The notes below the pieces were generated by a model. That model did not search any database. It saw only the letters and a list, made by a program, of their open reading frames with translations, and was not told where the DNA came from. 64,000 bases of DNA from Lenzites betulinus (lineage: Eukaryota; Basidiomycota; Agaricomycetes; Polyporales; Polyporaceae), in NCBI GenBank assembly GCA_022264855.1, contig JABYQU010000018.1, forward strand, positions 62,001 to 126,000, given 5' to 3'. The position numbers and the translations under genes were made by a program. Positions 2,573 to 53,787 of this stretch are shown here, piece after piece (the stretch's first letter is position 1; every line of letters starts with the position of its first letter).

Positions 2573-4378
2573 ATGTCTTCTTCGTCAGCGCCTGATCCAA
2601 CGGAGGCCATCATCTTGAACTACCAGGCTGCGTAGGTCGTCACCGCAATTATACCGAGACTGCATGCACTGTGGCTGACAGGAGTCTCACTTGCAGGAAT
2701 ACGTATATCACCTGCAATATCGCAACGAGCGGTAAGCGTTCTACATCGCATTCTCGGACCCTTAAAGACTCAAAAGCCGTTGACAGCCTTGTTCGTGTAC
2801 GACTACCTCCTATGCCTACCTAGGGAGTGCCAATATGTTTGGAAACCGGGAAAGTCGAGGGCATCACGGCTTCTGTACTTCTCCGTACGGTACATGTTCC
2901 TCCTGAACTCCATCGTCCCACTTGGCGTACTTAATCCAATATCAGACAAGGTGAGCACGCACATCCAGCGTTGTGCGTGCGCCCGCAAACTGACGTGTTT
3001 ATGAATCCAGAGGTGATGCTTCGTCGTATGCGCCTGAATTTCGCACATCACTAACACAGCTGTCGTGAAGCTGTACAGCGCTTGTGTGGATAGACACAGT
3101 GGTAGCCACCCTGACGCGGATAGGCCCTGCCGGTAAGTTCGACGTCGCGGTCTCAGCCGAAGGATGTAGCTAACGCTTGAACACCACGCAAGTGCTGACC
3201 GCTCTCAGGACGTTCGTTCTCTCGAGTAAAAACAGGCTCCTGCTTTGCATCACAATGCTCCTCGGTCTCGGTCCATTCCTCGTGAACGCGGTGAGTGCCT
3301 GCTTTCGTGCAGTCCTGCCATCTGGATTCCGCTGACTCGCACTGACACAGTGCACAGCGTACCTCTCCATGCCCCTGAACCTCCCACCTCCCCAAAACTG
3401 CGTAAACGTATACAACGTGAGCGCGACTCTCAATTTAGCGTGAGTGCCCCTCTGTCACCCGTGCGCCATCGCCACTGACCCCGGTAACCCGTAGATGTGA
3501 GCGAGATGATATGGCTTTATCGATAGACACCGAAGACTAAGCTGTTTGGGTAGTGGTGATCTGCTCGCGCGTCTCTACAATACTCGCGCAACTCATAGCG
3601 ATCGTCGTAACCTGGAGGGCGACGCGAAACTCAGACCAAGGCCTACGCGAGAGCTTCCAGCGACGCTCGCTGGAGCGCGTCATGTGGACGAATGGTGCGC
3701 GCGCAGTTTGTTCGGGCGCATATGGGGTGCTGACGGCGTGGCGACCTCATCTCGTCCAGGAAATGTGTATTTCCTGTGCGTCCATTGCACGCTCTCGAAT
3801 CACGGGGTACTGATGTCCCTTGCACAGCACACTACTCACATTGAGTTTACTCGACCTCATTCTCGTGCTGCTGTCGTCGGTTCGTCTAATTATCCGCCCC
3901 ATCTCGCGCATCCCGCCCTCATCCCCGCTTCTTCTCACAGCTCTCGTTCGGGATTGGTTTAGGGAGCTACGTCATCCTCTTCCTCCAGCCGTACGCCCTC
4001 TCTCCTCTAATTCACTCGCCCTGCCGCGTACTGACCTTCCGCCCCGCACGCAGAATAACCTCGATCCCGAGCTGCCACTTCCTGCTCGATCTGTACGAGA
4101 CGAACGCGCGGCTCGAGTGCGGCGGGTCCTCGCTCGAGCAGTCGCACGTAGACCTCAGCCTCTACTTCACCGTCGCGGGCATCGAGGGCGCGGAGCACCG
4201 CGACGACTCGCCCTTCCTCCGCTCCCTCTCGGGGCCCGTACACGCGTTCCCGAGCGACGGAGACGACGAAGACGACGACGACTACTCGCACCTGGGCGCG
4301 GGCGACTGGGGAGCGCTGCAGCTGAAGCCGGTGCATGCAGCCGCATGCACGCGGTCAAGCCTAGATCCGGGCGCATGA
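2573..4378 (+). CDS. DUF6533 membrane protein, copy 2 (divergent, intact)
   Basis: The start ATG at 2573 follows the same CAAG context as the other copies. Exon 3 carries the family signature (YDYLLC, PREC, QYVW). The splice pattern matches the reference copy at 13823-15681, with 2-nt exons AG at 3011-3012 and AT at 3495-3496. A TGA just before the exon 5 acceptor is intronic once the AG exon is used. All exons then join in frame to a TGA at 4376-4378. The last exon (4054-4378) has a run of Asp and Glu residues, and its tail is unlike that of the recently duplicated copies. Together with copies 1, 4 and 6 it looks like an older member of the family. It is probably a seven-helix integral membrane protein; its function is unknown. 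Confidence 0.82.
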
Positions 4379-5362: not shown

Positions 5363-7238
5363 TCACACCACCGTTTCTAAGGTTCCCGCGGCTCTTGAGC
5401 TTGGGCCCGCGGCTGCTTCGGAGCCCCCCGCCGTCGTTTCCACCTGCTTCGTAGTTACTCGCATAAGGACAGACGGCCCCGCCTCGGGCTCGTCGTCGGC
5501 CGTGTCGAACGCCATGTCGTCAGGGAATTAGTGTAGGACCGGGCCGGAGAGTGAGCTGAGGAAGGGCGAGTCCTCGGGGGAGTCCGCTCCCGGATCCTCT
5601 ATTCCCGTGAAGTGGAAACTAGCGATGCCGATGTTTGACTGGGAGAGGGACGAGCCGCCGCGCTTGAGCCGTGCGTGTGTTTCGTACAGGTCGAGAAGGA
5701 AGCGGCAGTTAAGGATAGTGGTCATACTACATGATGGGCGTTGCGTTCAGCGGCTAGGTAGTTTCGAGGTAGAGGGGCGTGCGTACGGATTGAGAAAAGT
5801 GGTGACATAATTGTCGTCGATCTGTGTGTCTACTATCTGGAGGACTCTGTTGGAGTCATAATACATGAAATGTATGGACAACTGCACGCACCGAGAGAGT
5901 GACCAGAATGAGGTCCAAAATATTGCCAAACAACAACGTGCTATATGGAACCATGTCAATCGTGGCGCGGGTGTGTGCTTCGTGTAGTACACTTGGTAAT
6001 CTTACATGAAATAGATGTTCCCTGCATGGGACGAGAACACGCAAGACCATCAGAGCATCAGAGCCAGTCCGCGGTTGAACGAGAGATGTGCTCACCATTT
6101 GTCCACATGATGTCCTGCAATGACGGTTGCTTGGATGTATCTTGTAAGACTTTGCGAGATGTCCTGGTCGCCCGTCAGGTCACGACAATTGTTATCAAGT
6201 CTGCGAGTATCGTGCAGGATCGTGCAGCGACCGTGACTAGGCGAACCGTTGACATTGAGTGTCTATCAACGAAACGATCGCATTTCGCTCACATCTGCAG
6301 ATTGGCGGTGGCAGAATCGTTGAGCGGCGCACGGACACCCGTAGAAGAGCAGGACTGACCCTATAAGCTCAGCTACACTTCCTGAATATTGTACAGCACA
6401 GTTCTCAGGAGGAGGAAGATTGACGGGCAACCGTTGGTATTCTGTGCTCTATGCGATACACATCGGTCAAGCGTCATCGAAATTCGCATAATAGAGAACA
6501 TTTACCGCGTTCACCAGAAAGGGGCCAAGACTGAGAATCATCGCAACCCCGCCCAGCAGCTTGTTTCTGCCCGAGAGAACATATGTCCTCAGCGTCGTGA
6601 GTACTGCCACGTTCATTAGTGATTGTGTCTGAAATTGGGGAGGTATAGTAATCAAGCAGCGACGGACTCACTGGCAGGTCCAATCAGGTCCAGTAAAAGT
6701 AGACATGTTTGACACCAGGTCAAGACTGCACAACTTTACGGCGATCGCGTTAGCGCTATAATGGGCTGCTAGTCATGAGGTAAACAAACACCTCTTCAGG
6801 CAGATACGACCTTCAGTAGGCGCATATGTAGGAAAGAGATACGTATGCTTACAGTGTCCGATACTGGCGGGATCGTCGCAGACGCCATCATATTATTCAG
6901 CAAGCTTATGTACCTGACGAACAGGTACACGAGCCGGGAGGCTTTGGAGCGGCGCGACCGCCAGACATATTGATACTCCCGGTCCAGGCAAAGGACATAA
7001 TCATATACGAACATCACTGTCATATTCAAAGGCATCTCGGTTAGATCGTCTAATGTGAATGTGATGCAGGATGATTTACCAGTCGCGGCAATTCCGCAGG
7101 TACTCGACGTCCTCCTGTACGTAATCGTATCATCAGCCCCAGCCCCTGTGGACTTTGTAGGATTAGAGGTATCACCTACACGAGCTGGTAAATCATGGCC
7201 ACGGCTGCTGCAGGAGTGCTTCCTGCCGACGAAGACAT
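5363..7238 (-). pseudogene. DUF6533 copy 3, probable pseudogene
   Basis: The start ATG is at 7238-7236. Exons and both 2-nt exons (AG at 6793-6792, AT at 6294-6293 on the minus strand) are preserved, but two nonsense changes are visible. In exon 9 the conserved VVTW tryptophan codon reads TGA (near 6176). In the last exon the Ser codon after PVLH reads TAA (near 5528); the frame then stays open to the family's usual stop at 5363. The first lesion would remove the last membrane helices and the whole tail. All splice sites still look normal, which suggests recent loss. A sequencing error is possible for either site but unlikely for both. Confidence 0.72.
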
Positions 7239-13822: not shown

Positions 13823-15681
13823 ATGTCGTCTTCGGTAACGGGTACTCCTCCAGCAGCCGTCGTCATGCTCTATCGGTCCCTGTAAGCTGCCGCTGTATCC
13901 TGCTACGCTCAAGGGACCACAGCTGATGGCATGTATGCGTGCAGACGGATAGTGAATGCCTGCGGAATTGCTGCTGCTGGCGAGTCATGCTGCGCGATAA
14001 CATGCACATCCGATAACCTGACGGAGATGCCGTTGAATATTACAGTGATGTTCGTCTATGATTACATCCTGTGCACGGGCAGGGAGTATCAATACGTCTG
14101 GCAATCGCACAACTCCAGGGCCTCCCGGCTTGTGTACCTGTACATCAGGTACATAAGCTTGCTGAATTACATTATGGCGCTTGTCACGATTCCGCCAGTA
14201 TCAGACACCGTAAGCATACGTCTAGCTCACGTACATATGTGTCTACTGACGCACATATTTTGCATGCAGAGGTGGTTATTTACCTTATGACCCCGAGCCC
14301 ATTACAGCACTGACAGGATCACCTTCAAGCTGTATCGTCTTGGGCTGGTGCACTACAGCCCTTGCACTTCTGAACTTGATCGGACCTGCTAGTGAGTCCG
14401 TCAGGGCTTCTTCGCACTGTCTCCGCAACCAGGATAACATTCACTGACCAACTGCGGCAGTACTCACAACGATTAGGACGTACGTTCTCTCGGGCAGAAA
14501 CAAGCTTCTGGGCGGGTCTGCTCTGATTCTCAGTCTTGGCCCCTTCCTCGTGAACGTGGTGAGTGCGTTCCCCATTTCGCCGATATCTATGAATCTTTAC
14601 CGATGCGCATTTCCATAGAGCAGCCAATACCGATACCTGCCCGTCAACCTCCCTCCTCCCGAGAACTGCGGTGTAGCAGATACAGGGAGTGCAGCTGAGA
14701 ATATCGGGTGAGTGTGCCTCGCCCACGGGCGCCGGCCCGGTGCCAGCCAGATACTGACACAGGAGCCTACCTGCAGACGTGAGCGAAATGCGACCGTTGG
14801 TGTGATAGATACTGAATGCCTCTGGCCGCGTAGTAACGGCCGCCGCGCGATCCTGCGCGATCCTCGCTGACTGCATAACAATCGTCGTGACCTGGCGGGC
14901 GACGAGGACGTCCCGCAATGCCCTGAAAGAAAGCTTTCTGCGGCCGTCGCTGCAAGACATCATGTGGACGAATGGTGAACACATTTCTCATTCAATACCC
15001 GCACACAGGCGCTGATGCTCTGATGATCTTGCGTGGCTTCGTCTTGTGTAGGGAACATATATTTCATGTAAGATCTCACGAATAATCGCCACCGCCACGA
15101 CTGACATGGCTCCTATAGCACACTGCTGTTCGGCAATCTGCTGGACCTCATACTGATCACACTGTCGGTGCGTCCGTGGGCTCCCCACTCCGCGTATCAC
15201 GACTCCAGCAAGGCGCCCCGCTTTATAGATTACAGACACGGACAACGGCGAAAACCAGGTCACGCAGTTCCTCGATCCGTGCGCCCATCCGCCCACCTCC
15301 GAGCCATCTCACCGCTGACCACGCCGCGCCTCATGCAGCATAAACTCGATCTTGAGCGCCCGCTTCCTGCTCGACCTCTACGAGACAAACGCACGGCTCG
15401 AACGCGGCGGCTCGTCCCTCTCGCAGTCGAACATCGGCACCCACAGTCTCCACTTCGCGGAGAGCGGGGGCGCGCGCGCGGACGCGCCCGAGAACCCTCC
15501 CTTCCTCGATTCGTTCTCCGGACCGGTACTGCATCCGTTCCCCGACGACATCATAGCGTTCGATACGATCGACGACAAACCCAAGCCGGCGGCGTCTCTC
15601 TCAGTGCAGACAATATTAATGGCGACAACAGCGGAAACGGCGACGGGGGGCTCCGCGAGGGCCTCAGAGTCGGTGGTGTGA
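13823..15681 (+). CDS. DUF6533 membrane protein, copy 4 (reference gene model)
   Basis: My complete model has 13 exons: 13823-13881, 13945-13979, 14046-14209, 14270-14271, 14330-14391, 14461-14558, 14619-14707, 14777-14778, 14834-14974, 15052-15067, 15119-15167, 15229-15278 and 15339-15681. They total 1110 nt, or 369 residues, with no stop. Exons 4 and 8 are 2 nt (AG, AC) and exon 10 is 16 nt. The family signature is in exon 3 (YDYILC, REYQYVW, LYIRYISLL). Hydrophobic segments follow in exons 3, 5, 6, 9 and 11, with a PPPENC loop in exon 7, consistent with about seven helices. The tail after LLDLYETNARLERGG is acidic, Ser-rich and probably cytoplasmic. Intron 2 starts with GC instead of GT. 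DUF6533 proteins have no established function. The micro-exons are inferred from frame and from conservation in all copies. Confidence 0.85.
14270..14271 (+). other. Proposed 2-nt exon AG of copy 4
   Basis: It lies between an acceptor TGCATGCAG and a donor GTGGTT. The upstream intron is 60 nt, with branch site CTGAC; the downstream intron is 58 nt, with branch site CTGAC. The upstream exon ends in phase 0, and AG plus the next C gives Ser before Cys. Without it the frame meets a stop or shifts. The same AG-GT arrangement is present in all ten copies that include this region. Confidence 0.7.
14777..14778 (+). other. Proposed 2-nt exon AC of copy 4
   Basis: It follows the acceptor CTGCAG and precedes the donor GTGAGC. 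The upstream exon ends in phase 2 (GG), so GG+A gives Gly and C+TA gives Leu, which restores the frame of the next membrane helix. The flanking introns are 69 and 55 nt. All eleven copies have AT or AC here. Confidence 0.7.
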
Positions 15682-20507: not shown

Positions 20508-22406
20508 ATGTCTTCGTCGGCAGATGGCACTTCTGCAGCAGCCGTGGCTGCGATTTACCAGTTCGTGTAGGTGTTGACTGTAATTCTACAAAAGCCACAG
20601 TGGCTGGTGTTGATGAGATGCTTGCATACAGGAGGACCGTGAATAGCTGTGGAATTGCCGCGACTGGTAAATGTTCCCGCACCCGATTATTCACATCGGA
20701 CGATCTGACTGAGATGCCTTTGAATATAACAGCGATGGTCATGTATGATTATGTCCTTTGCCTGGACCGGGAGTATCAATATGTCTGGCGGTCGCGCAAA
20801 TCCAAAGCCTCCCGGCTCGTGTACCTGTATATCAGGTACATAAGCTTTCTGGACTATGTGATGGCGTTTGCGACGATTGCGCCAGTATCGGACACCGTGA
20901 GCATGCGTATTTCTCTTATACATATGCGCCTACTGAAGGGTCGTATTTGCCTGAAGAGGTGTTTGTTTACCTCATGACTAGCAGCCCATTATAGCGCTAA
21001 CGCGATCGCCGTAAAGTTGTGCAGTCTTGATTTGGTGTCAAACATGTATAGGTTTCCTGGAATTGATTGGACCTGCCAGTGAGTCCGTCGCTGCTTGATT
21101 ACCATGCCTCCTCAATTTCAGACACAATCACTAATGAACGTGGCAGTACTCACGACGCTGAGGACATATGTTCTCTCGGGCAGAAACAAGCTGCTGGGCG
21201 GAGTTGCTTTGATTCTCAGTGTTGGCCCCTTTGTGGTGAACGCGGTAAATGTTCTCTGTCATGCGAATTTCGATGGCGATTGACTGATGTGTATTGCATA
21301 GAGCAGAGTATACCTGGAGTTGCCTGTCAATCTTCCTCCTCCCGTGAACTGCACTCCACAAATTGCAACGAGTACAGCTGAGGCTATAGAGTAAGTCGCG
21401 CTCTGCCATAGGTGTCCGTGCTCCGCTCCATGATGCTGACACTGGCACTCTACAGACGTGAGCGGAATGCGATCGTTGCGCTGATAGACACTAAATGTCA
21501 ACGGTTCGCGCAGTGGCGATCGTTGCAAGATCGTGTGCAATACTAGCAGACTTGATAACAATTGTCGTGACCTGGCGGGCGACCAGGACGTCCCGCAGAG
21601 TCCTACAAGATACATTTAAGCAACCGTCATTGCAGGACATCATGTGGACGAATGGTGAGCGCGCCTCTCGCTCGACCACCCACCGGATCCTCTGACGATA
21701 TTGCGTGCTTTTATCTCGTGCAGGGAACATTTATTTCATGTAAGATTGAGTGTACTACACGAAGCACCCACCCACGCCACGATTGACATGGTTCCATGTA
21801 GCACGCTGCTGTTTGGTAATCTACTGGACCTGATTCTGGTCACACTCTCGGTGCGTGCACTTGTCCATACATCCGGCGTAAAAACACTTCAACATAGCTC
21901 CCCAGATTACAGGCCTACAAGGCGACGGAAACTGGGTCATCCAGTTTCTCACTCCGTGCGCCCATTCCTCTGCTTGCCAGCCATAGCGCCGCTGATCACA
22001 ACGTACTTCATGCAGCATGACCGCCATCCTTAACTGCCGCTTCCTGCTCGACCTGTACGAAACGAACGCGCGGCTCGAGCGCGGCGGCTCGTCGCTCTCC
22101 CAGTCAAACATCGGCATCGGTAGTCTCCACTTCACGGGCATAGGCGCCCCGGAAGCGCCGGACTCCCCCGAGGACTCGCCCTTCCTCAGCTCGTTTTCCG
22201 GCCCGGTTCTACACTCGTTCCCCGACGACATTGCCGCGCTCGACACCGCCGACGACGAGCCTGAGTCCGTCCCAGCGCAGACGACGGCCCCAGCGACAGA
22301 AACGGCGGCAGGGGGCTCAAGCTCGGCGTGGAGGGCAGACACGACGTGGGGCTCAGACATCGCTGGGGGTTCGGGGGTCGCAGGAGGCTCTGGAATGGCG
22401 GTGTGA
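20508..22406 (+). CDS. DUF6533 membrane protein, copy 5 (intact, 385 aa)
   Basis: Exon sizes equal those of the reference copy except for the longer last exon (22016-22406). The 2-nt exons are AG at 20957-20958 and AC at 21456-21457. The total is 1158 nt, or 385 residues. A TAA near 21014 lies in the intron just before the exon 5 acceptor and is removed if the AG exon is used. Signature motifs are YDYVLCLDREYQYVW and LRTYVLSGRNKLLGG. The tail ends SGMAV and, like copies 7-11, carries Ser/Gly/Trp-rich repeats after PVLHSFPDD. It belongs to the recent subfamily that includes copies 3 and 7-10. An LPDER relic follows tail-to-tail. Confidence 0.85.
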
Positions 22407-25344: not shown

Positions 25345-27171
25345 TCACGCCGCTGTGTTCGAGCCTCCCGCCGCCATCGCCATCGGCGTTGTCTCCGCTG
25401 GGATAGACGGCTCCGCTTCGGGCTTCTCGTCAACCGTGTCGAGCGCCGTGTCTTCCGACTCGTCGGAGAACGAGTCAAGTAGGACCGGGCCGGAAAATGA
25501 GCCGAGGAAGTGCGAGTTCTCGCCGGGAGCGTGCGCTGCCTTGAATTCGTTGAAGTGGAGGCTGAGGGTGCCCATGTCAGACTGGGAGAATGACGAGCCG
25601 CCACGCTCGAGCCGTGCATTCGTTTCGTAGAGGTCCAGCAGGAAACGACAGTTGAGGATCGAGGTTATGCTGTATGGTGTGCACTCATGATCAGCGGCGG
25701 GACAGCGCAGCGGCGGGGAGTAGACGTACGGATCGATGAACCCGATGGGCCAGTTCGCGTTGTTCTCTGGGTCCGTGATCTATAGAAGGGAGACTCTGTT
25801 GAGATGATGATATGCAGAATCAGTTACCAACCGAACGCACCGAAAGCGTGGCGAGAATGAGGTCCAGTAGATTCCCACACACCACTGTGCTTAATATCGA
25901 CGCATGTTAATGATAACAGTGGCGGCTCTTAGGATGCACTAGATCTTACATGAAATATATATTCCCTGCACAAAACGGGCACACGCATTAGAACATCACT
26001 GATCAGGAAGCACGGTGGCAGACCGTCAAACTAGATGTGAGCTCACCGTTCGTCCACATGACGTCCTGTAGCGATGGTTGCTGAAAGCTATCTCTCATGA
26101 CCTTGCGAGACGTTCTTGTCGCCCGCCAGGTCACGACGATAGTAATGCAATCAGCGATTATTGCGCAGGATCGCGACACGACAGTCACTGCACGAATCGC
26201 CTGCATTTAGCGTTTACCAACTCAGCTAGCATTGCAATTTGCTTACATCTGCAGATCGCCGATGTCAGCAATGGGGCCCGGAGTCTTGTGGTAGAGCAGG
26301 ACTCACGCTAGATGCTCCGCCGTGGTCATTGTTGAATTAGAAGCGCAGTTTATGGGAGGTGGAAAATTGGCGGGCGGGGACTGGTGTATGGTGATCTACT
26401 CCAACGCGCGTTGGTCAACGTTTATAGACGTCAGCAGATGTCACTCACCACATTCACCAGTAAGGGTCCAAGACTGATCATCATAGCAATCCCCCCTAGC
26501 AGCTTGTTTCTGCCCGAGAGAACGTACGTCCTAAGCGTGGTGATTACTTTCGCATTTAATCAGCGGTTGTATTCATAACTTCGGAGGACGTGGAGACGGA
26601 CTCACTGGCAGGCCCGATTAAGGCCAGTAGAACTAGACATGAAAGGCTCCAGCCCACTGCTATACAGCTTCACGCCGATGGTGTTAATGCTGTAAATGAC
26701 TATAAGTCCGAAGGCGAACATTCACCTCTGCATGCCCCGGTATATGTGCTTTAGTATACATAATTATACAAGAGGTTACAGATGCTTACAGTATCTGATA
26801 TTGGCTGCATAGTCGCAACCGCGTAAACAAGATTCACCAGGCTTAGGTACCTGATGTACAGGTACACAAGCCGGGAGGCCTTGGACTTGCCCGAGTGCCA
26901 GACGTATTGATACTCCCTGCCCAGGCATAGAATGTAATCGTATATGTAAACCACTGTCGCGTTCATCAGACATCTACATCAGACTGCCCGAGCTAGAGAA
27001 TGTAGTGCACGTAGACTTACCCGCAGGGGCAATTATTATGCAGGCGGTCGTAGTCCTCCTGTACACATGTATACCGTTAACTTCAGGCGTTTTGATCATA
27101 GCGATCACTTACACTTCCTGGTAAAGTGTAATTATGGCTGCTACAGGGCTGCCCGCCACCGCCGAAGACAT
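25345..27171 (-). CDS. DUF6533 membrane protein, copy 6 (divergent, intact)
   Basis: The start ATG is at 27171-27169 and the stop at 25347-25345. Exon 2 is 38 nt instead of 35 and stays in frame. Exon 3 has YDYILCLGREYQYVW. The 2-nt exons are AG at 26727-26726 and AT at 26248-26247. A TGA just upstream of the exon 5 acceptor is intronic. The last exon (25669-25345) has a shorter tail, ending in NTAA like copy 1 rather than the ELAV-type end. Its sequence is clearly older than the 20-50 kb subfamily. No LPDER copy lies at its 3' side, and it is one of few copies not following the array's orientation. Confidence 0.83.
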
Positions 27172-29142: not shown

Positions 29143-31058
29143 ATGTCTTCATCAGCAGGCGACACTTCTGCAGCAGCCGTGGCTGCCCTTTACCAGTTCA
29201 TGTAGGTGGCCACTGCAATCCTATCAAGGCCACAGGGGTGGTGTTGACGAGATGCTTGCGTACAGGAGGACGGCGAATACCTGCGGAATTGCCGCGACTG
29301 GTAAATCATTCCTCAGTAGATCATTCACACCAGACGATCTGACAGATATGTCGATGAATTTGACAGTAATGCTTGTATATGATTATGTCCTTTGCCTGGA
29401 CCGGGAGTATCAGTATGTCTGGCGGTCGCGCAAATCCAAAGCCTCTCGGCTCGTGTACCTGTATATCAGGTACATCAGCTTGCTGGAATATGTGACGGGG
29501 CTTGTCACGATCCCGCCAGTATCGGACACCGTGAGCATGTGTATATCTCTTATACATATGCACCTACTGAAGGTCGTATTTTGCATGAAGAGGTGTTTGT
29601 TTACCTCATCACTCAGAGCTCAATATCGCACTAACACGGTCGCCGTAAAGTTGTGCAGTCCTGAGCTGGTGCCAAACGTGTTTAACATTGCTGGCCTTGA
29701 TTGGATCTTCCAGTGAGTCCGTCGCTGCTTGATTAATCTACCTCCGAAGCTTAGAATACAATCGCTGATGAACATGGCAGTACTCACGATGCTGAGGACA
29801 TATGTTCTCTCGGGCAGAAACAAGCTGCTGGGCGGAGTTGCTTTGATCCTCAGTCTTGGTCCCTTGTTGGTGGACGTGGTGAGTGCTCTGTTGTGCGAAT
29901 TTCGATGGCCCTTGACTAATGTACTGCATAGAGCACATTCTACCTAACGTTGCCCGTCAATCTCCCTCCTCCCGAGAACTGCGCTGGACAAAATGCAGCG
30001 AGCACAGCTGAGGCTATAGGGTCAGTCCTACTCTACCACAGGTGTACGTGCTCTGCTCAACGATGCTGACACCGACAATCTGCAGATGTGAGCGGAATGC
30101 AATCATTACGCGAATAGAAGCTCAATGTCAATTGTTCGCCTAGTCACGGTCATTGTACGATCCTGCACGATACTCGCAGACTTGATAACAATCGTCGTGA
30201 CCTGGCGGGCGACCAGGACGTCCCGCAAAGTCCTACAAGATACATTTAAGCAACCGTCATTGCAGGATATCATGTGGACGAATGGTGAGCGCACCTCTCG
30301 TTCAACTGCTTGCAGGCCCTGATCCTCTGACAATATTGCATGCTTTTGTCTCGTGCAGGGAACATTTATTTCATGTAAGATTGAGTGTACTACACGAAGC
30401 ACCCACCCACGCCACGATTAACATGGTTCCATGTAGCACGCTGCTGTTTGGTAATTTACTGGACCTCATTCTGGTCACACTCTCGGTGCGCCCGGTTCTT
30501 CATACATATCGTGTGTAGCCACTCCAACAGAGTCCCCAGATTACGGACCCAAAAAGCGACGAAAACTGGGTTGTCAACTTTCTCGATGCGTACGGTCATT
30601 CCTCTACCTGCGAGCTATCTCGCCGCTGATCACAACGTACTGCATGCAGCATGACCATGATCCTAAGCTGCCGCTTCCTGCTCGACCTGTACGAAACGAA
30701 CGCGCGGCTCGAACGCGGCGGCTCGTCGCTCTCCCAGTCAAATATCGGCATCGGCAGTCTGCACTTCACGGGAATAGGCGGCCCTGAAGGGGACTCCCCC
30801 GAGGACTCGCCCTTCCTCAGCTCGTTTTCCGGCCCGGTTCTACACTCGTTCCCCGACGACTCCGACATGGTGTTCGACACGACCGATGACGAGCCCGAGA
30901 CAGGGCCCTCCGTCCCAGCGCGGACGACTGCGCTAGCGGCGGCGGTGACGGAAACAGCGGCAGAGGGCTCGAGCTGTGCGTGGACGGCAGACACGGCGGT
31001 GTGCTCAGCTGTCGCCGGGAGATCGGGATTCGCGGGAGGATCAGAAATGGCGGTGTGA
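29143..31058 (+). CDS. DUF6533 membrane protein, copy 7 (intact, 391 aa)
   Basis: The start ATG is at 29143. The 2-nt exons are AG at 29591-29592 and AT at 30086-30087. The last exon, 30650-31058, encodes PVLHSFPDD and a tail ending GGSEMAV. Exon lengths sum to 1176 nt. As in copy 5, a TAA lies in the intron before exon 5. The donor after exon 7 is GTCAGT, weaker than the GTGAGT or GTAAGT of copies 4 and 5, and the same weak donor occurs in copies 3, 8, 9 and 10. It pairs tail-to-tail with LPDER copy B. Confidence 0.85.
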
Positions 31059-35516: not shown

Positions 35517-37438
35517 ATGTCCTCGTCGGCCGGCGGCACTCCTGCAGCAGCCGTGGCTGCAATCTACCAACTCACGTAGGTGGTGACTGTATTTTACAAA
35601 AGCCACAGGGGCTGGTGTTGACGACATGGTTGCGTACAGGAGGACGGTGAATACCTGTGGAATTGCCGCGAATGGTAAATCTTCTCGCACCCGATCATTC
35701 ACATCGGACGATCTGACTGAGATGCCTTTGAATACAACAGCGATGGTCATATATGATTATGTGCTTTGCCTGGACCGGGAGTATCAATATGTCTGGCGAT
35801 CGCGCAGCTCCAAAGCCTCCCGGCTCGTGTACCTGTATATCAGGTACATAAGCTTGCTGGAATATGTGATGGGGTTTGCCACGATCGCGCCAGCATCCGA
35901 CACTGTAAGCATGCGTATATCTCTTATAAATATGTGCTTACTAACGAACATATTTTGCATGAAGAGGTATTTGTTTACCTCATGACTCAGAGCTCATTAT
36001 AGCACTAACGCGATCGACGTGTAGTTGTGCAGCCTTGAACTGGTCTCAAACATGTCTACTTTTACTGAACTTGATTGAACCTGCCAGTGAGTCCGTCACT
36101 GCGTGATTACCATACCTCCTCAATTTCAGACGCAATCACTGCTAATGAACGTGACAGTACTCACGACGCTGAGGACATATGTTCTCTCGGGCAGAAACAA
36201 GCTGCTGGGCGGGGTTGCGATGCTTCTCAGTCTTGGCCCCTTTCTGGTGAACGCGGTAAATGTTCTCTATCATGCGAATTTCGATGACACTTGACCGATG
36301 TGTATTGCATAGAGCACGGTATACCATGAGTTGCCTGTCAATCTTCCTCCTCCCGAGAACTGCACTTTACAATATTCAGAAAGTGTAGCTGAGATTCAAG
36401 TTATAGGGTCAGTCTTGCGTGTGTCCCTGCTCCGCTCCCCGATGCTGACACCGGCAATCTGCAGATGTGAGCGAAATGCGATCGTTACGCCGATAGACAC
36501 TGAATTCCAACGGTCCGCGCAGTGGCGATCGTTGCAAGATCGTGTGCAATACTAGCAGACTTGATAACAATTGTCGTGACTTGGCGGGCGACCAGGACGT
36601 CCCGCAAAGTCCTACAAGATACGTTCAAGCAACCGTCATTTCAGGATATCATGTGGATAAATGGTGAGCATGTCTCTCGTTCAACCGCGCACTGGCTCTG
36701 ACGCTCTGATGGTCTTGCGTGTTCTCGTTTCGCGCAGGGAACATCTATTTCATGTAAGATTACTAAGTGTACTTCACGAAGCACACACCCGCGCCACGAT
36801 TGACATGCTTCCATATAGCACGCTATTGTTTGGCAATATTTTGGACCTCATTCTGGTCACTCTCTCGGTGCGTGCAGTTGTTCGTACATTCGGCATAAAA
36901 ACACTTCAACATAGCTCCCCAGATTACAGGCCTACAAGGCGACGGAAACTGGGCTGTCGGATTCCTCAATGTGTACGCCCGTTCCTCTACCTGCGAGCCA
37001 TGTCGCCGCTGATCACAACGTACTTTATGCAGCATGACCACCATACTTAACTGTCGCTTCCTGCTCGACCTGTACGAAACGAACGCGCGGCTCGAACACG
37101 GCGGCTCGTCCCTCTCGCAGTCAAACATCGGCATCGGCAGTCTGCACTTCACGGGAATAGAGGGGCCTGAAGGGGACTTCCCCGAGGACTCGCCCTTCCT
37201 CAGCTCGTTTTCCGGCCCGGTCCTACATTCGTTCCACGACGACGACATGGCGCTCGACACGGCCGACGACGAGCCCGAGGCGGGGCCGTCCGTCCCAGCG
37301 CAGACGACTGCGCTAGCGGCGGAGGTGACGGAAACAGCGGCAGAGGACTCGGGCTCTGCGTGGACGGCAGACACGGCGGGGGCCTCACCTGTCGCCGGGG
37401 AATTGGGATTCACGGGAGGCTCAGAACTGGCGGTGTGA
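35517..37438 (+). CDS. DUF6533 membrane protein, copy 8 (intact, 392 aa)
   Basis: The start ATG is at 35517. The 2-nt exons are AG at 35965-35966 and AT at 36465-36466. Exon 7 is 6 nt longer than in copy 5 and in frame. Exons sum to 1179 nt with the last exon at 37033-37438. Here the codon at the site of the intronic TAA in other copies is TGT, so exon 5 could also be read from an upstream acceptor without a stop; the micro-exon model still fits. The branch site TACTAAC before the AG exon is a perfect consensus. The tail ends GGSELAV. It lies in the left arm of the central inverted repeat. Confidence 0.85.
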
Positions 37439-44668: not shown

Positions 44669-46589
44669 TCACACCGCCAGTTCTGAGCCTCCCGCGACCC
44701 CCGATCCCCCGGCGACAGCTGAGCCCCTCGCCGTGTCTGCCGTCCACGGAGAGCCCGAGCCCTCTGCCGCTGTTTCCATCACCTCCGCCGCTAGCGCAGT
44801 CGTCTGCGCTGGGACGGACGGCCCCGCCTCGGGCTCGTCGTCGGCCGTGTCGAGCGCCATGTCGTCGTCGTCGGGGAACGAATGTAGGACCGGGCCGGAG
44901 AACGAGCTGAGGAAGGGCGAGTCCTCGGGGGAGTCCCCTTCAGGGCCGCCTATCGCCGTGAAGTGCAGACTGCCGATGCCGATATTTGACTGGGAGAGCG
45001 ACGAGCCGCCGCGCTCGAGCCACGCGTTCGTTTCGTACAGGTCGAGCAGGCAGCGGCAGTTAAGGATGGCGGTCATGCTGCATGAATTACGTTGTGATCA
45101 GCGGCGAGATGGCTCGCAGGTGGAGGAATGGGCGTACGGATCGAGAAAGTCGATGACCCAGTTTCCGTTGGTTTGTGGGTCTGTAATCTGGGGGACTCTG
45201 TTGAAGTGTTTTTACGCTGAATGTATGAACAACTGCACGCACCGAGAGTGTGATCAGAATAAGGTCCAGTAGATTACCAAACAACAACGTGCTATATGGA
45301 AACATGTCAATCGTGGCGCGGGTGTGTGCTTCGTGTAGTACACTTGGTAATCTTACATGAAATAGACATTCCCTACAAGAGGCGAGAACACGCAAGATCA
45401 TCAAAGCGTCAGAGCCAGTCCGCGGTTGAACGAGAGGCGCGCTCACCGTTCGTCCACAAGATGTCCTGCAATGACGGTTGCCTGAACGTATCTTGTAAGA
45501 GTTTGCGGGACGTCCTGGTCGCCCGCCAGGTCACGACGATTGTTATCAAGTCTGCGAGTATCGCGCAGGATCGTGCAGCGACCGTGACTAGGCGAACAAT
45601 TGACATTGAGCGTCTATTAGCGCAACGATCGCGTTTTGCTCACATCTGCAGATTGCCGGGGTCAGCATCGTTGAGCAGAGCATGGACACCTGTGGTAGAG
45701 CAGGACTGACCCTATAGCCTCAGCTGTGGTCGCTGCATTTTGTCCAGCGCAGTTCTCGGGAGGAGGGAGATTGACGGGCAACGTTAGGTAGAATGTGCTC
45801 TACGCAGTACATTAGTCAAGGGCCATCGAAATTCGCACAACAGAGCACTCGCCACGTCCACCAACAAGGGGCCAAGACTGAGAATCAAAGCAACTCCGCC
45901 CAGCAGCTTGTTTCTGCCTGAGAGAACATATGTCCTCAGCATCGTGAGTACTGCCACGTTCATTAGTGATTGTGTCTGAAATTGAAGAGGTATGGTAATC
46001 AAGCAGCGACGGACTCACTGGCAGGTCCAATCAGGTCCAGGAAACCTACACATATTTGACACCAGGCCAATACTGCACAACTTTACGGCGATCGCGTTAG
46101 CGCTATAATGGGCTGCTAGTCATGAGGTAAACAAACACCTCTTCATGCAAAATATGTCCGTTAGTAAACTCATTTGTATAAGAGATATATGCATGCTCAC
46201 GGTGTCCGATACTGGCGGAATCGTCACAAACGCCATCACATATTCCAGCAAGCTTATGTACCTGATATACAGGTACACGAGCCGGGAGGCTTTGGACTTG
46301 CGCGATTGCCAGACATATTGATACTCCCTGTCCAGGCAAAGAACATAATCATATATAACCATTACTGTCATTTTCAAAGGCACCTCAGTCAGATCGTCCG
46401 ATGTGAATGATCTGGTGCGGGATAATTTACCAGTCGCGGCAATTCCGCAGGTATTCACCGTCCTCCTGTACGCAAACATCTCGTCAACACAAGCCACTGT
46501 GGCTTTTGTAGAATGACAGGTGCCACCTACACGAGCTGGTAGATCATGGCCACGGCTGCTGCAGGGGTGCCGCCTGCCGACGAAGACAT
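44669..46589 (-). CDS. DUF6533 membrane protein, copy 9 (intact, 391 aa)
   Basis: The start ATG is at 46589-46587 and the last exon at 45077-44669. The 2-nt exons are AG at 46140-46139 and AT at 45645-45644. Exon lengths equal those of copy 7 (1176 nt). The donor after exon 6 is GCGAGT (45852-45851), a GC donor where copy 7 has GTGAGT. A TAA sits in the intron before exon 5. The tail ends GGSELAV. It is convergent with intact LPDER copy A, so this is the only fully intact DUF6533-LPDER pair in the window. Confidence 0.85.
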
Positions 46590-48413: not shown

Positions 48414-50319
48414 TCACACCGCCAGTTCTGAGCCTCCCGCGACCCCCGATCCCCCAGCGATGTCTGAGCCCCCCGGCGTGTCTGCCCTCCACACCGAGCT
48501 CGAGCCCCCTGTCGCCATTTCCGTCGCTGGCGCCGTCATCTGCGCTGGGACGGACGGCCGCGCCTCGGGCTCGTCGTCGGCCGTGTCGAGCGTCATGTCG
48601 TCGTCGGGGAACGAGTGTAGGACCGGACCGGAAAACGAGCTGAGGAAGGGTGAGTCCTCGGGGGAATTCGCTGCCGAGCCCTCTATTTCCGTGAAGTGCA
48701 GACTGCCGATGCCGATATTTGACTGGGAGAGCGACGAGCCGCCGCGTTCGAGCCGTGCGTTCGTTTCGTACAGGTCAAGTAGGAAGCGGCAATTAAGTAT
48801 GGCGGTCACGCTGCATGAGGTACGTTGTGATCAGCGGCGAGTTGGCTCGCAGGTCGAGGAATGACTGTACGGTTCGAGAAATTCGGTAACCCAGTTATCC
48901 TGGTTTTGTGGGTCTATAATCTGGGGGACTATGTTGAAGTGTATTCACGCCGAATGTATGAACAAGTGCACGCACCGAGAGTGTGACCAGAATGAGGTCC
49001 AAAATATTGCCAAACAACAACGTGCTATATGGAACCATGTCAATCGTGGCGCGGGTGTGTGCTTCGTGTAGTACACTTGTTAATCTTACATGAAATAGAT
49101 GTTCCCTGCACGAGACGAGAACACGCAAGACCATCAGAGCATCAGAGCCAGTGCGCGGTTGAACGAGAGGCGCGCTCACCGTTCGTCCACATGATGTCCT
49201 GCAATGACGGTTGCTTAGATGCATTTTGTAGCACTCTGCGGGACGTCCTTGTCGCCCGCCAGGTCACGACGATCGTTATCAAGTCTGCAAGTATCGCGCA
49301 GGTTCGTGCAGCGACCGCGACTAGGCGAACAATCAACATTGAGTGTCTATTTGCGCAACGATCACTTTTCGCTCACATCTGCAGATTGGCGGTGTCAGCA
49401 TCGTGGAGCGGAGCACGGACACACGTAACAGAGCAGGACTGACCCTAAGATCTCAGCCGTGCTCGCTGCAATTTGTCCAGCGCAGTTCTCGGGGGGAGGA
49501 AGATTGACGGGAACCCGTTGGTATACTGTGCTCTACGCAGTACACATCAGTCAAGTGTCATCGAAATCCACACGACAATTACCACGTTCACCATGAAGGG
49601 GCCAAGACCGAGAATCATCGCAACCCCGCCCAGCAGTTTGTTTCTGCCCGAGAGAACATATGTCCTCAGCGTCGTGAGTACTGCCACGTTCATTAGTGAT
49701 TGTATCTGAAATTGAGGAGGTATGGTAATCACGCAGTGACGGACTCACTGGCAGGTTCAATCAAGTCCAGTACAATTAGACATGTTTGACACCAGTTCAC
49801 GGCTGCACAACTACACGTCGATCGCGTTAGCGCTATAATGAGCTCTAAGTCATGAGGTAAACAAACACCTCTTCATGCAAAATATGTTCGTTAGTAAACA
49901 CATATGCATAATAGATATACGCATGCTCACAGCGTCCGATACTGGCGCGATCGTGGCAAGCCCCATCACATATTCCAGCAAGCTTGGGTACCTGATGAGC
50001 AGGTACACGAGCCGGGAGGCTTTGGACTTGCGCGACCGCCAGACATATTGATACTCCCTGTCCAGGCAAAGGACATAATCGTATATAACCATTACTGTCA
50101 AATTCATCGGCATCTCAGTCAGATTGTCTGGTGTGAATGATGGGGTGCGGGAAGATTTACCAGTCGTGGTAATTCCGCAGATATTCGTCGTCCTCCTGTA
50201 CGCAAGCATCTCGTCAATACCAGCCCCTGTGGCTTTTGTAGAATTACAGTGACCACTTACGCGAGCTGGTAGATGGCAGCCACGGCTTCTACAGGAGCGC
50301 CGCCTGCCGACAAAGACAT
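48414..50319 (-). CDS. DUF6533 membrane protein, copy 10 (intact, 387 aa)
   Basis: The start ATG is at 50319-50317 and the last exon at 48810-48414. The 2-nt exons are AG at 49870-49869 and AT at 49378-49377. The summed length is 1164 nt. Exon 3 ends SDA rather than SDT. The codon at the TAA site of other copies is TGT, as in copy 8. The donor after exon 6 is GTAATT. Flanking sequence on both sides matches that of copy 5 in inverted orientation, which makes these two a likely pair from one segmental duplication. Confidence 0.85.
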
Positions 50320-51850: not shown

Positions 51851-53787
51851 TCACACCGCCAGTTCTGAGCTTCCCGCGACTCCCGATCCCTCGGCGACGA
51901 CTGGGCCCCCCGTCATGTCTGCCCTCCACGCCGAGCTCGAGCCTCCTGCCGCCGTTTTTGTCGCTGGCGCCGTCGTCTGCGCTGGGATGGACGGCCCCGC
52001 CTCGGGCTCGTCGTCGACCGTGTCGAGCGCCATGATGTCATCGTCGGGGAAAGAGTGTAAAACGGGGCCGGAGAATGAGTTAAGGAAAGGCGAGTCCTCT
52101 TGCCCGTGCGCATCCGCGCCATCGATTCCCGTGAAGTGGAGACTGAGGGTTCCAATGTTTGACTGAGATAGGGAGGAGCCGCCGCGTTCGAGCCGTGCGT
52201 TCGTTTCATAGAGGTCGAGCAGGAAGCGGCAGTTTAGTATGGTGGATATGCTGCATGATGTGCGTCGTGATCAGCGGTGGGAGAGTTTGGGGGTATAGGA
52301 ATAGACGTACACTTCGAGAAACAAGATGGCCCAGTTGCAGTCCCCTAATCCGACAATCTACAAGATGAGGTGCCCTGTTGGAGTCGTGATATATGGGATG
52401 GGCAGCCGACCGGACGTACTGAGAGCGTACTGAGAGCGAGAGCTAGTATACTACCACAAAGCAGCGTGCTATACGGAGGCATGTCAATCGTGACGTCCGA
52501 TGGTGGTTCTCGTTGTGCATTAAATCTCACATAAAATAGATATTCCCTAGGCAGGATGAGGACACGCAAGACCATCATATCATTAGACCTGAGTGCGGTG
52601 AACGGAGATGCGAACTCACCGTTAGTCCACATGATGTCATGCAACGACGGCTGCTGAAAGCTATCTCTCATGTCACTGCGGGAAGCTCGGGTCGCCCGCC
52701 AGGTCACGGCGATCGTTATGCAGTTAGCAAGTATTGCACAGGTCCGTGTGGCGATCGTCACTACGCGAACCATTTGCATTGAGCGTCTATCAATGCAGAG
52801 ATTACATTTCGCTCACATCTGCAGATCGTGAGTGTCAGCATCGCGGGATGGCTCCCGGGCACCCGCGGCAGAGTGGGGCTCACCCTATATTCTCAGCTGT
52901 GCTGCCAGTGTATATTGTGCCACAGTTTGCGGGAGGAGGAAGATTGGCGGGCTTTAGTAGGTATTCGCCGCTCTATCCCAATGTGCATGCCAGGCGGCGT
53001 CACCGTTGTATTTGATAAATATCGGCACAGCGGAAAACACTGACCACGTTTATGATGAAGGGACCAAGGCTGGAAATCAGAGCAAACCCGCCCAGGACCT
53101 TGCTTCTACCAGAGAGAACGTATGTCCTAAGCGTTGTGAGTACTTCCACAATCGATCAGCGATTGTATCCTGAGCTTCAGAGGTGGCATGATTAAGCGCC
53201 GGCGGACTCACTGGCAGGCCCGATGAAGTCCAGCAATCCTATGCATGCAATGCACCAGCTCAGAACTGCACAGCTGCACGGCAATCGTTTTAGTGTTGTG
53301 ATTGACTGCAAGTAACGAGGTTAATAGCAACCTCTGCATGCAAGATACGTGCTTTGGTATGTGCAGATGTACAACAGGTTTGTGTGAGCTTACGGTGTCC
53401 GATGATATGGGCGCAAGCGTGGCAAGCGGCATAGCAAAATTCAGTAAGCTTATGTACCTGATGTACAGGTACACAAGCCGGGAGGCTTTGGACTTGTGTG
53501 TCCTCCAGACGTACTGATACTCCCTGTCCAGGCATAGAATGTAATCGTACAGGGTAAGCGCTGTCATGTTCATGTGGACTCCGTTAGATCGCTCGATGCG
53601 CATGTTGTGTTCCATGAAGACTTACCAGTGGTGGCATTCCCGCATGTAATCGCCGTCCTCCTGCACACAAGCACATTGTCAACGCTGGCCCCTGTGACGT
53701 TCGTAAACTTATAGTGACGACCTACACGGACTGGTAAACCATGACCACCACGGCTGCCTCAGGATCCGCTGTGGCTGACGAAGACAT
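51851..53787 (-). CDS. DUF6533 membrane protein, copy 11 (intact)
   Basis: The start ATG is at 53787-53785. Exon 1 is 62 nt, one codon longer than usual. Exon 3 has YDYILCLDREYQYVW and ends ISSDT. The 2-nt exons are AG at 53333-53332 and AT at 52818-52817. Upstream of the exon 5 acceptor the codon is TGC, not a stop. Exon 11 ends at TCA before a GTACGT donor, beside a small direct duplication of CTCTCAGTACG that offers a second donor. The last exon 52250-51851 ends GSSELAV. It is more diverged from copies 7-10 than they are from each other. Confidence 0.83.

Follow-up and report, generated by a model that had tools for sequence, protein, structure and literature searches.

Two predicted two-nucleotide exons per gene in the DUF6533 family of Lenzites betulinus

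Described minute exons and the DUF6533 genes

Exons of a single nucleotide have been described in the plant genes APC11 (PMC4674806) and VPS55 (PMC8831610) and in the Fusarium gene CYP621A (PMC12940212), with RNA support as reported in these papers. Here, we analyzed a stretch of 64,000 nucleotides of the basidiomycete Lenzites betulinus (assembly GCA_022264855.1, contig JABYQU010000018.1, positions 62,001 to 126,000 of the forward strand; "the window"), which holds ten complete copies of DUF6533 genes (PF20151) in both orientations, all above the Pfam cut-off. As judged from genomic sequence and protein models, these seven-helix genes very probably comprise about 13 exons, two of which, at places referred to below as site 1 and site 2, are only two nucleotides long and constitutively included. 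Exons of this size appear to be among the smallest inferred in any gene.

The plant cases, as described, resemble the DUF6533 genes in that an ultra-small exon is essential for the reading frame, conserved across species and missed by annotation (PMC4674806, PMC8831610); for APC11, intronless relatives are reported to carry the base in place, and a stepwise removal was proposed (PMC4674806). Their exons are, however, described as one nucleotide long, single within the gene and confined to one or a few gene copies, whereas the DUF6533 genes carry two 2-nucleotide exons each, with letters that turn over and a length that mostly stays at two. Fusarium CYP621A shares further traits, as it is fungal, shows a phase mismatch and a doubled intron length, has an intronless homologue and places its exon next to a conserved motif (PMC12940212). 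Its exon was confirmed by RNA reads and is described as one exon of the same letter in the orthologues of one genus (PMC12940212), whereas the DUF6533 exons predicted here are two in number and extend across dozens of diverged paralogues. Short introns and very small exons were also described for the P450 genes of Phanerochaete chrysosporium, likewise a white-rot basidiomycete, but the smallest exon in that report measures 6 bp (PMC1184071). Stwintrons, as commonly described, also involve two introns with an obligatory sequential removal; nothing between the inner and the outer intron is kept in their mRNA, whereas the DUF6533 genes would keep two nucleotides. Within the same Pfam family, SNB1 (Snowball) of Coprinopsis cinerea was reported with seven predicted transmembrane helices (PMC10949477).

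Literature searches on microexons in fungi, basidiomycetes and Agaricomycetes and on DUF6533 gave no 2-nucleotide exon in DUF6533 genes among the matches listed, and a search naming a 2-nucleotide exon gave unrelated matches only. In two of the papers matched for Agaricomycetes, "microexon" refers to a setting of a read mapper. What is new here is the occurrence of two 2-nucleotide exons per gene, conserved in dozens of diverged paralogues with turnover of their letters, together with natural variants in one genome.

Exon structure in the window and across the genome

All genes were modelled with a spliced aligner that accepted exons of any length and introns in each of the three phases, and that could also handle frameshifts, residue gaps and codons interrupted by two introns. 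Junction residues were masked and each gene was excluded from its own profile; the cysteine column after site 1 was left unmasked. For the final splice weights, 459 introns from elsewhere in the family served as the training set, after exclusion of 14 introns with GC donors, and GC donors were penalised; these weights superseded a first pass in which splice weights were rougher and GC donors cheap. In all ten complete window copies, the aligner placed both 2-nucleotide exons between canonical splice sites and in the same two codons. With few departures, the exon lengths follow the series 59, 35, 164, 2, 62, 98, 89, 2, 141, 16, 49 and 50 nucleotides, followed by the last exon, and copy 7, rebuilt by hand, gave 13 exons with the same length series and a coding sequence of 1176 nucleotides.

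Copy 4, on the forward strand, illustrates this structure. Following exon 1 (13823–13881, 59 nucleotides, starting with ATG) and exon 2 (13945–13979, 35 nucleotides), exon 3 (14046–14209, 164 nucleotides) contains the bulk of the DUF6533 match and ends in phase 0. The intron upstream of site 1 (14210–14269, 60 nucleotides, GTAAGC..ATGCAG) is separated from the one downstream (14272–14329, 58 nucleotides, GTGGTT..TTCAAG) by the dinucleotide AG at 14270–14271, which would form the serine codon AGC with the first base of exon 5 (14330–14391, 62 nucleotides), so that the predicted spliced join reads ...GACACC AG CTGTATCG... (14209 / 14270-14271 / 14330) and the conserved cysteine is the first full codon of exon 5. 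Exon 6 (14461–14558, 98 nucleotides) and exon 7 (14619–14707, 89 nucleotides, ending in phase 2) lead to site 2, where the dinucleotide AC at 14777–14778 lies between introns of 69 nucleotides (14708–14776, GTGAGT..CTGCAG) and 55 nucleotides (14779–14833, GTGAGC..GCGTAG). Here, A would close the glycine codon GGA and C would open the leucine codon CTA, with a predicted join of ...ATATCGG AC TAACGGCC... (14707 / 14777-14778 / 14834). The gene continues with exons 9 (14834–14974, 141 nucleotides), 10 (15052–15067, 16 nucleotides), 11 (15119–15167, 49 nucleotides), 12 (15229–15278, 50 nucleotides) and the aligned part of exon 13 (15339–15582), beyond which the frame remains open until the stop of a 1110-nucleotide coding sequence. 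Exon 10 represents a third small exon, constant at 16 nucleotides in all ten complete copies.

On the forward strand, the aligner placed the site-1 and site-2 exons at 3011–3012 (AG) and 3495–3496 (AT) in copy 2, 20957–20958 (AG) and 21456–21457 (AC) in copy 5, 29591–29592 (AG) and 30086–30087 (AT) in copy 7, in agreement with the hand model, and 35965–35966 (AG) and 36465–36466 (AT) in copy 8. On the reverse strand, they lie at 6792–6793 (AG) and 6293–6294 (AT) in copy 3, 26726–26727 (AG) and 26247–26248 (AT) in copy 6, 46139–46140 (AG) and 45644–45645 (AT) in copy 9, 49869–49870 (AG) and 49377–49378 (AT) in copy 10, and 53332–53333 (AG) and 52817–52818 (AT) in copy 11. Copy 1, on the forward strand, contributes a site-2 exon (AT, 176–177); its site 1 falls outside the window and is without an AG acceptor. 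As a separate observation, copy 3 (5483–7238, reverse strand) shows in-frame stops in exon 9 and in the last exon with every splice site kept, and is probably a recent pseudogene.

A preliminary description of the window had proposed two such exons in every DUF6533 copy. Every position that it listed indeed holds the dinucleotide given there between AG and GT (on the minus strand, the lower coordinate had been given), its coding lengths of 1110, 1158, 1176 and 1179 nucleotides for copies 4, 5, 7 and 8 were reproduced up to the stop, and the flanking introns, described as 45–75 nucleotides long, measure 55–69 nucleotides in the ten complete copies. The two exons close the frame in the window and recur at the same places in distant paralogues on other contigs. 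That they are present in all copies is not quite right, since locus L045, of which copy 1 is the window part, is without the AG needed as site-1 acceptor (ATATATAG/GT); the claim applies to the ten complete copies, and copy 1 retains site 2. Skipping was said to shift the frame in every copy: omitting site 1 leads to a premature stop in all ten complete copies (copy 3 has stops of its own), and omitting site 2 does so in nine, the exception being copy 2, whose shifted frame remains open. The branch-site motif TACTAAC, noted in one case, precedes site 1 in copies 8, 9 and 10, and the remark on retention through many duplications was modestly worded, given that the deepest split of the gene tree (midpoint root) has the site-1 state on either side.

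The window lies in a contig of 598,728 bases (C19) of a 37.4-Mb genome with 81 DUF6533 matches, every one above the curated Pfam cut-off. We modelled 79 of them, as L047 is interrupted and was left out and L021 was under the threshold (W2–W11 denote copies 2–11 and W1 copy 1; L001–L008 are unused, being repeats of other loci). A 2-nucleotide exon was found at site 1 in 62 of the 79 genes, with two more having 5 nucleotides, and at site 2 in 51; beyond these two sites, none occurred among 971 exons, one of which had 4 nucleotides. When models scoring below 4000 (7 of 79) are set aside as weak, 60 of the remaining 72 genes have the site-1 exon, 51 the site-2 exon and 49 both. The superseded first pass had given 54/79 and 44/79 for the two sites, with one 2-nucleotide and four other tiny exons elsewhere. 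Among 20 close relatives, modelled with masked junctions and leave-one-out profiles, 18 carried the exon at site 1 and 18 at site 2; no other exon of 5 nucleotides or fewer was found in these genes, and their exon lengths are otherwise near-uniform. The paralogues are spread over many contigs, and eight sampled distant ones are 22–31% identical to the T. gibbosa protein P0004. The introns flanking the 2-nucleotide exons are of usual size (medians of 57–63 nucleotides vs. 61 for 618 other introns). L047 (C19:138310-141350) is a close relative in which several hundred extra bases displace the middle exons, by insertion or decay.

The letters of the exons are far less constant than their length. 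At site 1, AG (36) is followed by AC (10), GG (7), CG (3), GT (2) and one each of GC, TC, CA and CT, in addition to the two exons of 5 nucleotides; at site 2, 15 of the 16 possible dinucleotides occur, as do single exons of 1, 4 and 5 nucleotides. On a tree of 75 genes (junction columns excluded, quick search, midpoint root), the letters changed a minimum of 22 times at site 1 and 28 times at site 2, the 5-nucleotide forms counted in. Such conservation of length under turnover of letters is expected of a coding exon under frame constraint, whereas in a splicing signal the letters themselves should be conserved. The base that completes the site-1 codon, on the far side of the intron, covaries with the dinucleotide: among the 37 genes with split-box dinucleotides (AG in 36), 34 have a pyrimidine at this position, giving serine, as compared to 9 of 25 genes with fourfold-box ones (Fisher P = 4e-6), and to 17/19 vs. 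8/24 when the 20 close genes are left out (P = 4e-4).

Intron-poor paralogues show the same letters as coding sequence. Seven genes have one site-1 intron of 48–73 nucleotides, with the two letters belonging to the adjoining exon: in L015 and L076, the phase-0 intron before the dinucleotide is the one kept, and in L039, L049, L053, L057 and L010 it is the phase-2 intron after the dinucleotide (the models of L076 and L010 are weak, and L010 uses a GC donor). Six further models have no site-1 intron; of these, L065, L070 and L077 (the last a weak model) show the codon in continuous coding sequence, and L054, L072 and L075 are unreadable in this stretch. Site 2 is less clear, with single introns of normal length only in L059, L071, L028 and L070. 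Of the nine single site-1 introns above 100 nucleotides of the first-pass run, the better weights left only L045 and L009. In L009, the aligner passed over a candidate GG exon at site 1, located between introns of 59 and 60 nucleotides. Other lengths were seen as well: the site-2 exon has 8 nucleotides in L060, L017, L073 and L063 and 11 in L049, L054, L039 and L057, all 2 modulo 3, and the sister pair L067 and L078 has a site-1 exon of 5 nucleotides, ACAAA.

Public protein models provide a further comparison, for which all 35 proteins returned were used. P0008 (C2E23DRAFT_823753, 235 amino acids) matches the spliced copy 6 letter for letter and spans site 2, thereby including its 2-nucleotide exon, and no single intron giving this stretch was found among the GT/GC-AG pairs searched around that site. 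Both joins appear at exact length in P0004 and P0009 of T. gibbosa and P0020 of T. cingulata, and the site-1 join in P0017 of T. coccinea and P0025 of Dichomitus squalens. Two ordinary introns gave a net length of 0 in 18/22 and 20/24 public proteins, and two D. squalens models differ from each other by 5 residues at site 1.

P0004 matches PF20151 with 56.8 bits (cut-off 24.1), and the AlphaFold2 model of this T. gibbosa relative predicts seven long helices (mean predicted local distance difference test score 73.5, predicted template modelling score 0.60). A fold search against the PDB pointed in general terms to a seven-helix bundle like that of G protein-coupled receptors (GPCRs), with the class D GPCR Ste2 as best match among the matches listed. 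Two cysteines of P0004, Cys 82 where helix 3 begins and Cys 151 in the loop that leads to helix 5, are invariant in ten members and may be compared with GPCR disulfides. The PF20151 profile covers 46 positions, and its match in P0004 stops roughly 15 residues short of site 1.

Controls and rival explanations

Chance alone can place such a dinucleotide in an intron of this length. After dinucleotide shuffling of the compound introns of the first-pass models, about 12% contained AG-NN-GT with two introns of at least 42 nucleotides, and site scores matching the real ones occurred in 1.2% at site 1 (54 genes) and in 0.5% at site 2 (44 genes). The full aligner called a 2-nucleotide exon in 34 of 248 runs on shuffled introns at site 1 and in 21 of 204 at site 2, and resorted to a frameshift in 100/248 and 79/204, respectively. 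A frame-fitting artefact was rejected as a candidate after masking of acceptors, shuffles, relearned weights, leave-one-out profiles and masking of junction residues.

Several observations nevertheless weigh against two constitutive 2-nucleotide exons. When the acceptor of the 2-nucleotide exon was masked, an in-frame way without a frameshift was available in 12/18 genes at site 1 and 8/18 at site 2, and the site-1 alternatives used a donor 8 nucleotides downstream (five), the next dinucleotide GT (four) or others (three). The GT alternative costs just 0.4 bit in copies 3, 5, 9 and 10, which, therefore, on their own barely separate AG from GT as the 2-nucleotide exon; the predicted choice of AG is decided by the T. 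gibbosa proteins together with the remaining copies. CTRAY-like motifs 8–45 nucleotides before the acceptor lend no support: the fraction of introns with such a motif is 0.50 for those preceding site 1, 0.47 for those following it and 0.65 for those preceding site 2, as compared to 0.47 for other introns, and the motifs are scarcer after site 2 (0.25). Seven genes have one long intron of 95–137 nucleotides at site 2, eight have no intron there in their mostly weak models, and in L045 (copy 1 plus its upstream part), the loss of the site-1 acceptor AG leaves a zero-nucleotide-like site; L045 may be a broken gene, or a GC donor 8 nucleotides farther on may be used instead. Most public models are without the joins: among scorable proteins, the net length is 0 in 7/20 for site 1, with 5 judged right, and in 9/18 for site 2, with 4 judged right. 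Moreover, gene counts across paralogues are not independent, the covariation and shuffle tests ignore relatedness, with omission of the close clade as sole phylogenetic adjustment, and the cysteine that follows site 1 in 64/64 genes is so partly by construction, as its column was unmasked. Finally, we infer constitutive inclusion, sequential removal of the introns and the order of their removal, the latter from splice-site strength alone.

Instead of two introns around a minute exon, each place could hold one long intron of about 110–130 nucleotides with a shifted donor or acceptor, e.g., with exon 3 extended by 8 nucleotides. This is how W2, W8, L018, L026 and L058 were resolved with the acceptor masked, through the in-frame donor 8 nucleotides downstream, and with the first splice weights the aligner preferred this donor in W7 and L045 even unmasked. 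Among the window copies, however, a GT at this position is present in copy 7 only, and copy 7 returns to the 2-nucleotide exon once the weights are learned from other introns. Without the 2-nucleotide exon, a frameshift was forced in 6/18 genes at site 1 and 10/18 at site 2, and the other makeshifts vary by copy; a single intron would also have twice the usual length and would not account for paralogues in which only one intron, or none, is present. We regard this arrangement as highly improbable. We give even less weight to a stwintron or recursive zero-nucleotide site, in which removal of the inner intron is followed by loss of the entire middle. Stwintrons have been described in several fungi, site 1 in the window reads AG-AG-GT, which is near a ratchet point, and L045 shows AG/GT with the dinucleotide gone. 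Yet complete loss of the middle, which defines a stwintron, would leave the frame two nucleotides short, as seen in the skipping tests, and the dinucleotide is coding sequence in intron-poor paralogues and is retained at site 2 in P0008.

Equally remote is the idea that the genes are decaying tandem copies, whose 2-nucleotide exons arose as a frame-fitting accident in pseudogenes. Copy 3 with its two in-frame stops, the interrupted L047 and the frameshifts that L013, L016 and L046 needed in one run are in line with decay, but the remaining nine complete copies of the window have conserved exon lengths and a frame that reaches a normal stop. Moreover, distant paralogues on other contigs contain these exons as well, their joins are found in annotated proteins of other species, and third codon bases covary across the intron. 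An option that we consider unlikely, though clearly less so than the previous ones, is that the exons are real and are skipped in a regulated fraction of transcripts, inclusion yielding the receptor and skipping leading to truncation or decay. Apart from constitutive inclusion, it fits the two-exon structure favored here. Skipping of either exon shifts the frame and truncates the product in nearly all window copies, the site-1 downstream donors are weak in the window genes, and a microexon switch was reported for Trichoderma Xlr2 (PMC11121469); kept length with turnover of letters, however, is what constitutive coding use predicts.

Predicted splicing, ancestry and meaning for the family

Fungal introns as short as these are recognised across the intron. 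As the introns flanking the constitutive 2-nucleotide exons proposed here are ordinary, short and of the GT-AG type, intron definition is most likely, and since splice sites 2 nucleotides apart could hardly be bound together, as was argued for APC11 (PMC4674806), the two introns would most likely be removed in succession. At site 1 of the window genes, the upstream donor reads GTRAGC in 10/10 and the downstream donor is without G at +5 in 10/10, a base present in 92% of the training introns. The upstream intron would consequently be the first to be removed, because its donor is strong and the downstream one weak, and its excision would leave AG/GT to be used in the second step. Site 1 would supply the first two letters of the codon preceding the conserved cysteine with which helix 3 sets in; the two letters of site 2, close to the beginning of helix 5, would close one codon and open the following one.

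The gene tree places two introns at site 1 on both sides of its deepest split (9 of 15 rows on the smaller side, most of the 60 on the other). At site 2, the smaller side has the two-intron arrangement with 8-nucleotide exons in four genes and zero 2-nucleotide ones, and the 11-nucleotide exons form a clade on the larger side. With the midpoint root, the predicted two-intron architecture is old at both sites. The site-1 state (one, two or no introns) changed at least five times on the tree, and introns would have been lost there in several lineages.

Exons of 1–2 nucleotides probe how the spliceosome separates exon from intron, because exon definition is hardly applicable to them and the two splice sites have to fit into the space of a single complex. 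The comparison cases, as described, offer one such exon per gene, and here about 50 paralogues have two each (49/72). Moreover, the genome represents a ready set of variants for studies of function and removal order, including letter changes, exons of 5, 8 or 11 nucleotides, one-intron forms and a broken site.

Public models of the DUF6533 family tend to fail at the two joins, with other introns mostly right, a pattern that exons of two nucleotides would explain, and DUF6533 proteins are therefore often truncated or wrong in databases; the short PF20151 domain itself may be an artefact of mis-spliced models. This concerns a family that includes a gene required for fruiting-body patterning. It is possible, although we regard it as rather doubtful, that the two 2-nucleotide exons are ancestral to the whole DUF6533 family in mushroom-forming fungi, Snowball included, and that splicing efficiency gates the amount of receptor. 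If true, very many genes would be assembled by obligatory ordered splicing over 2-nucleotide exons, which could serve, e.g., as gating during fruiting.

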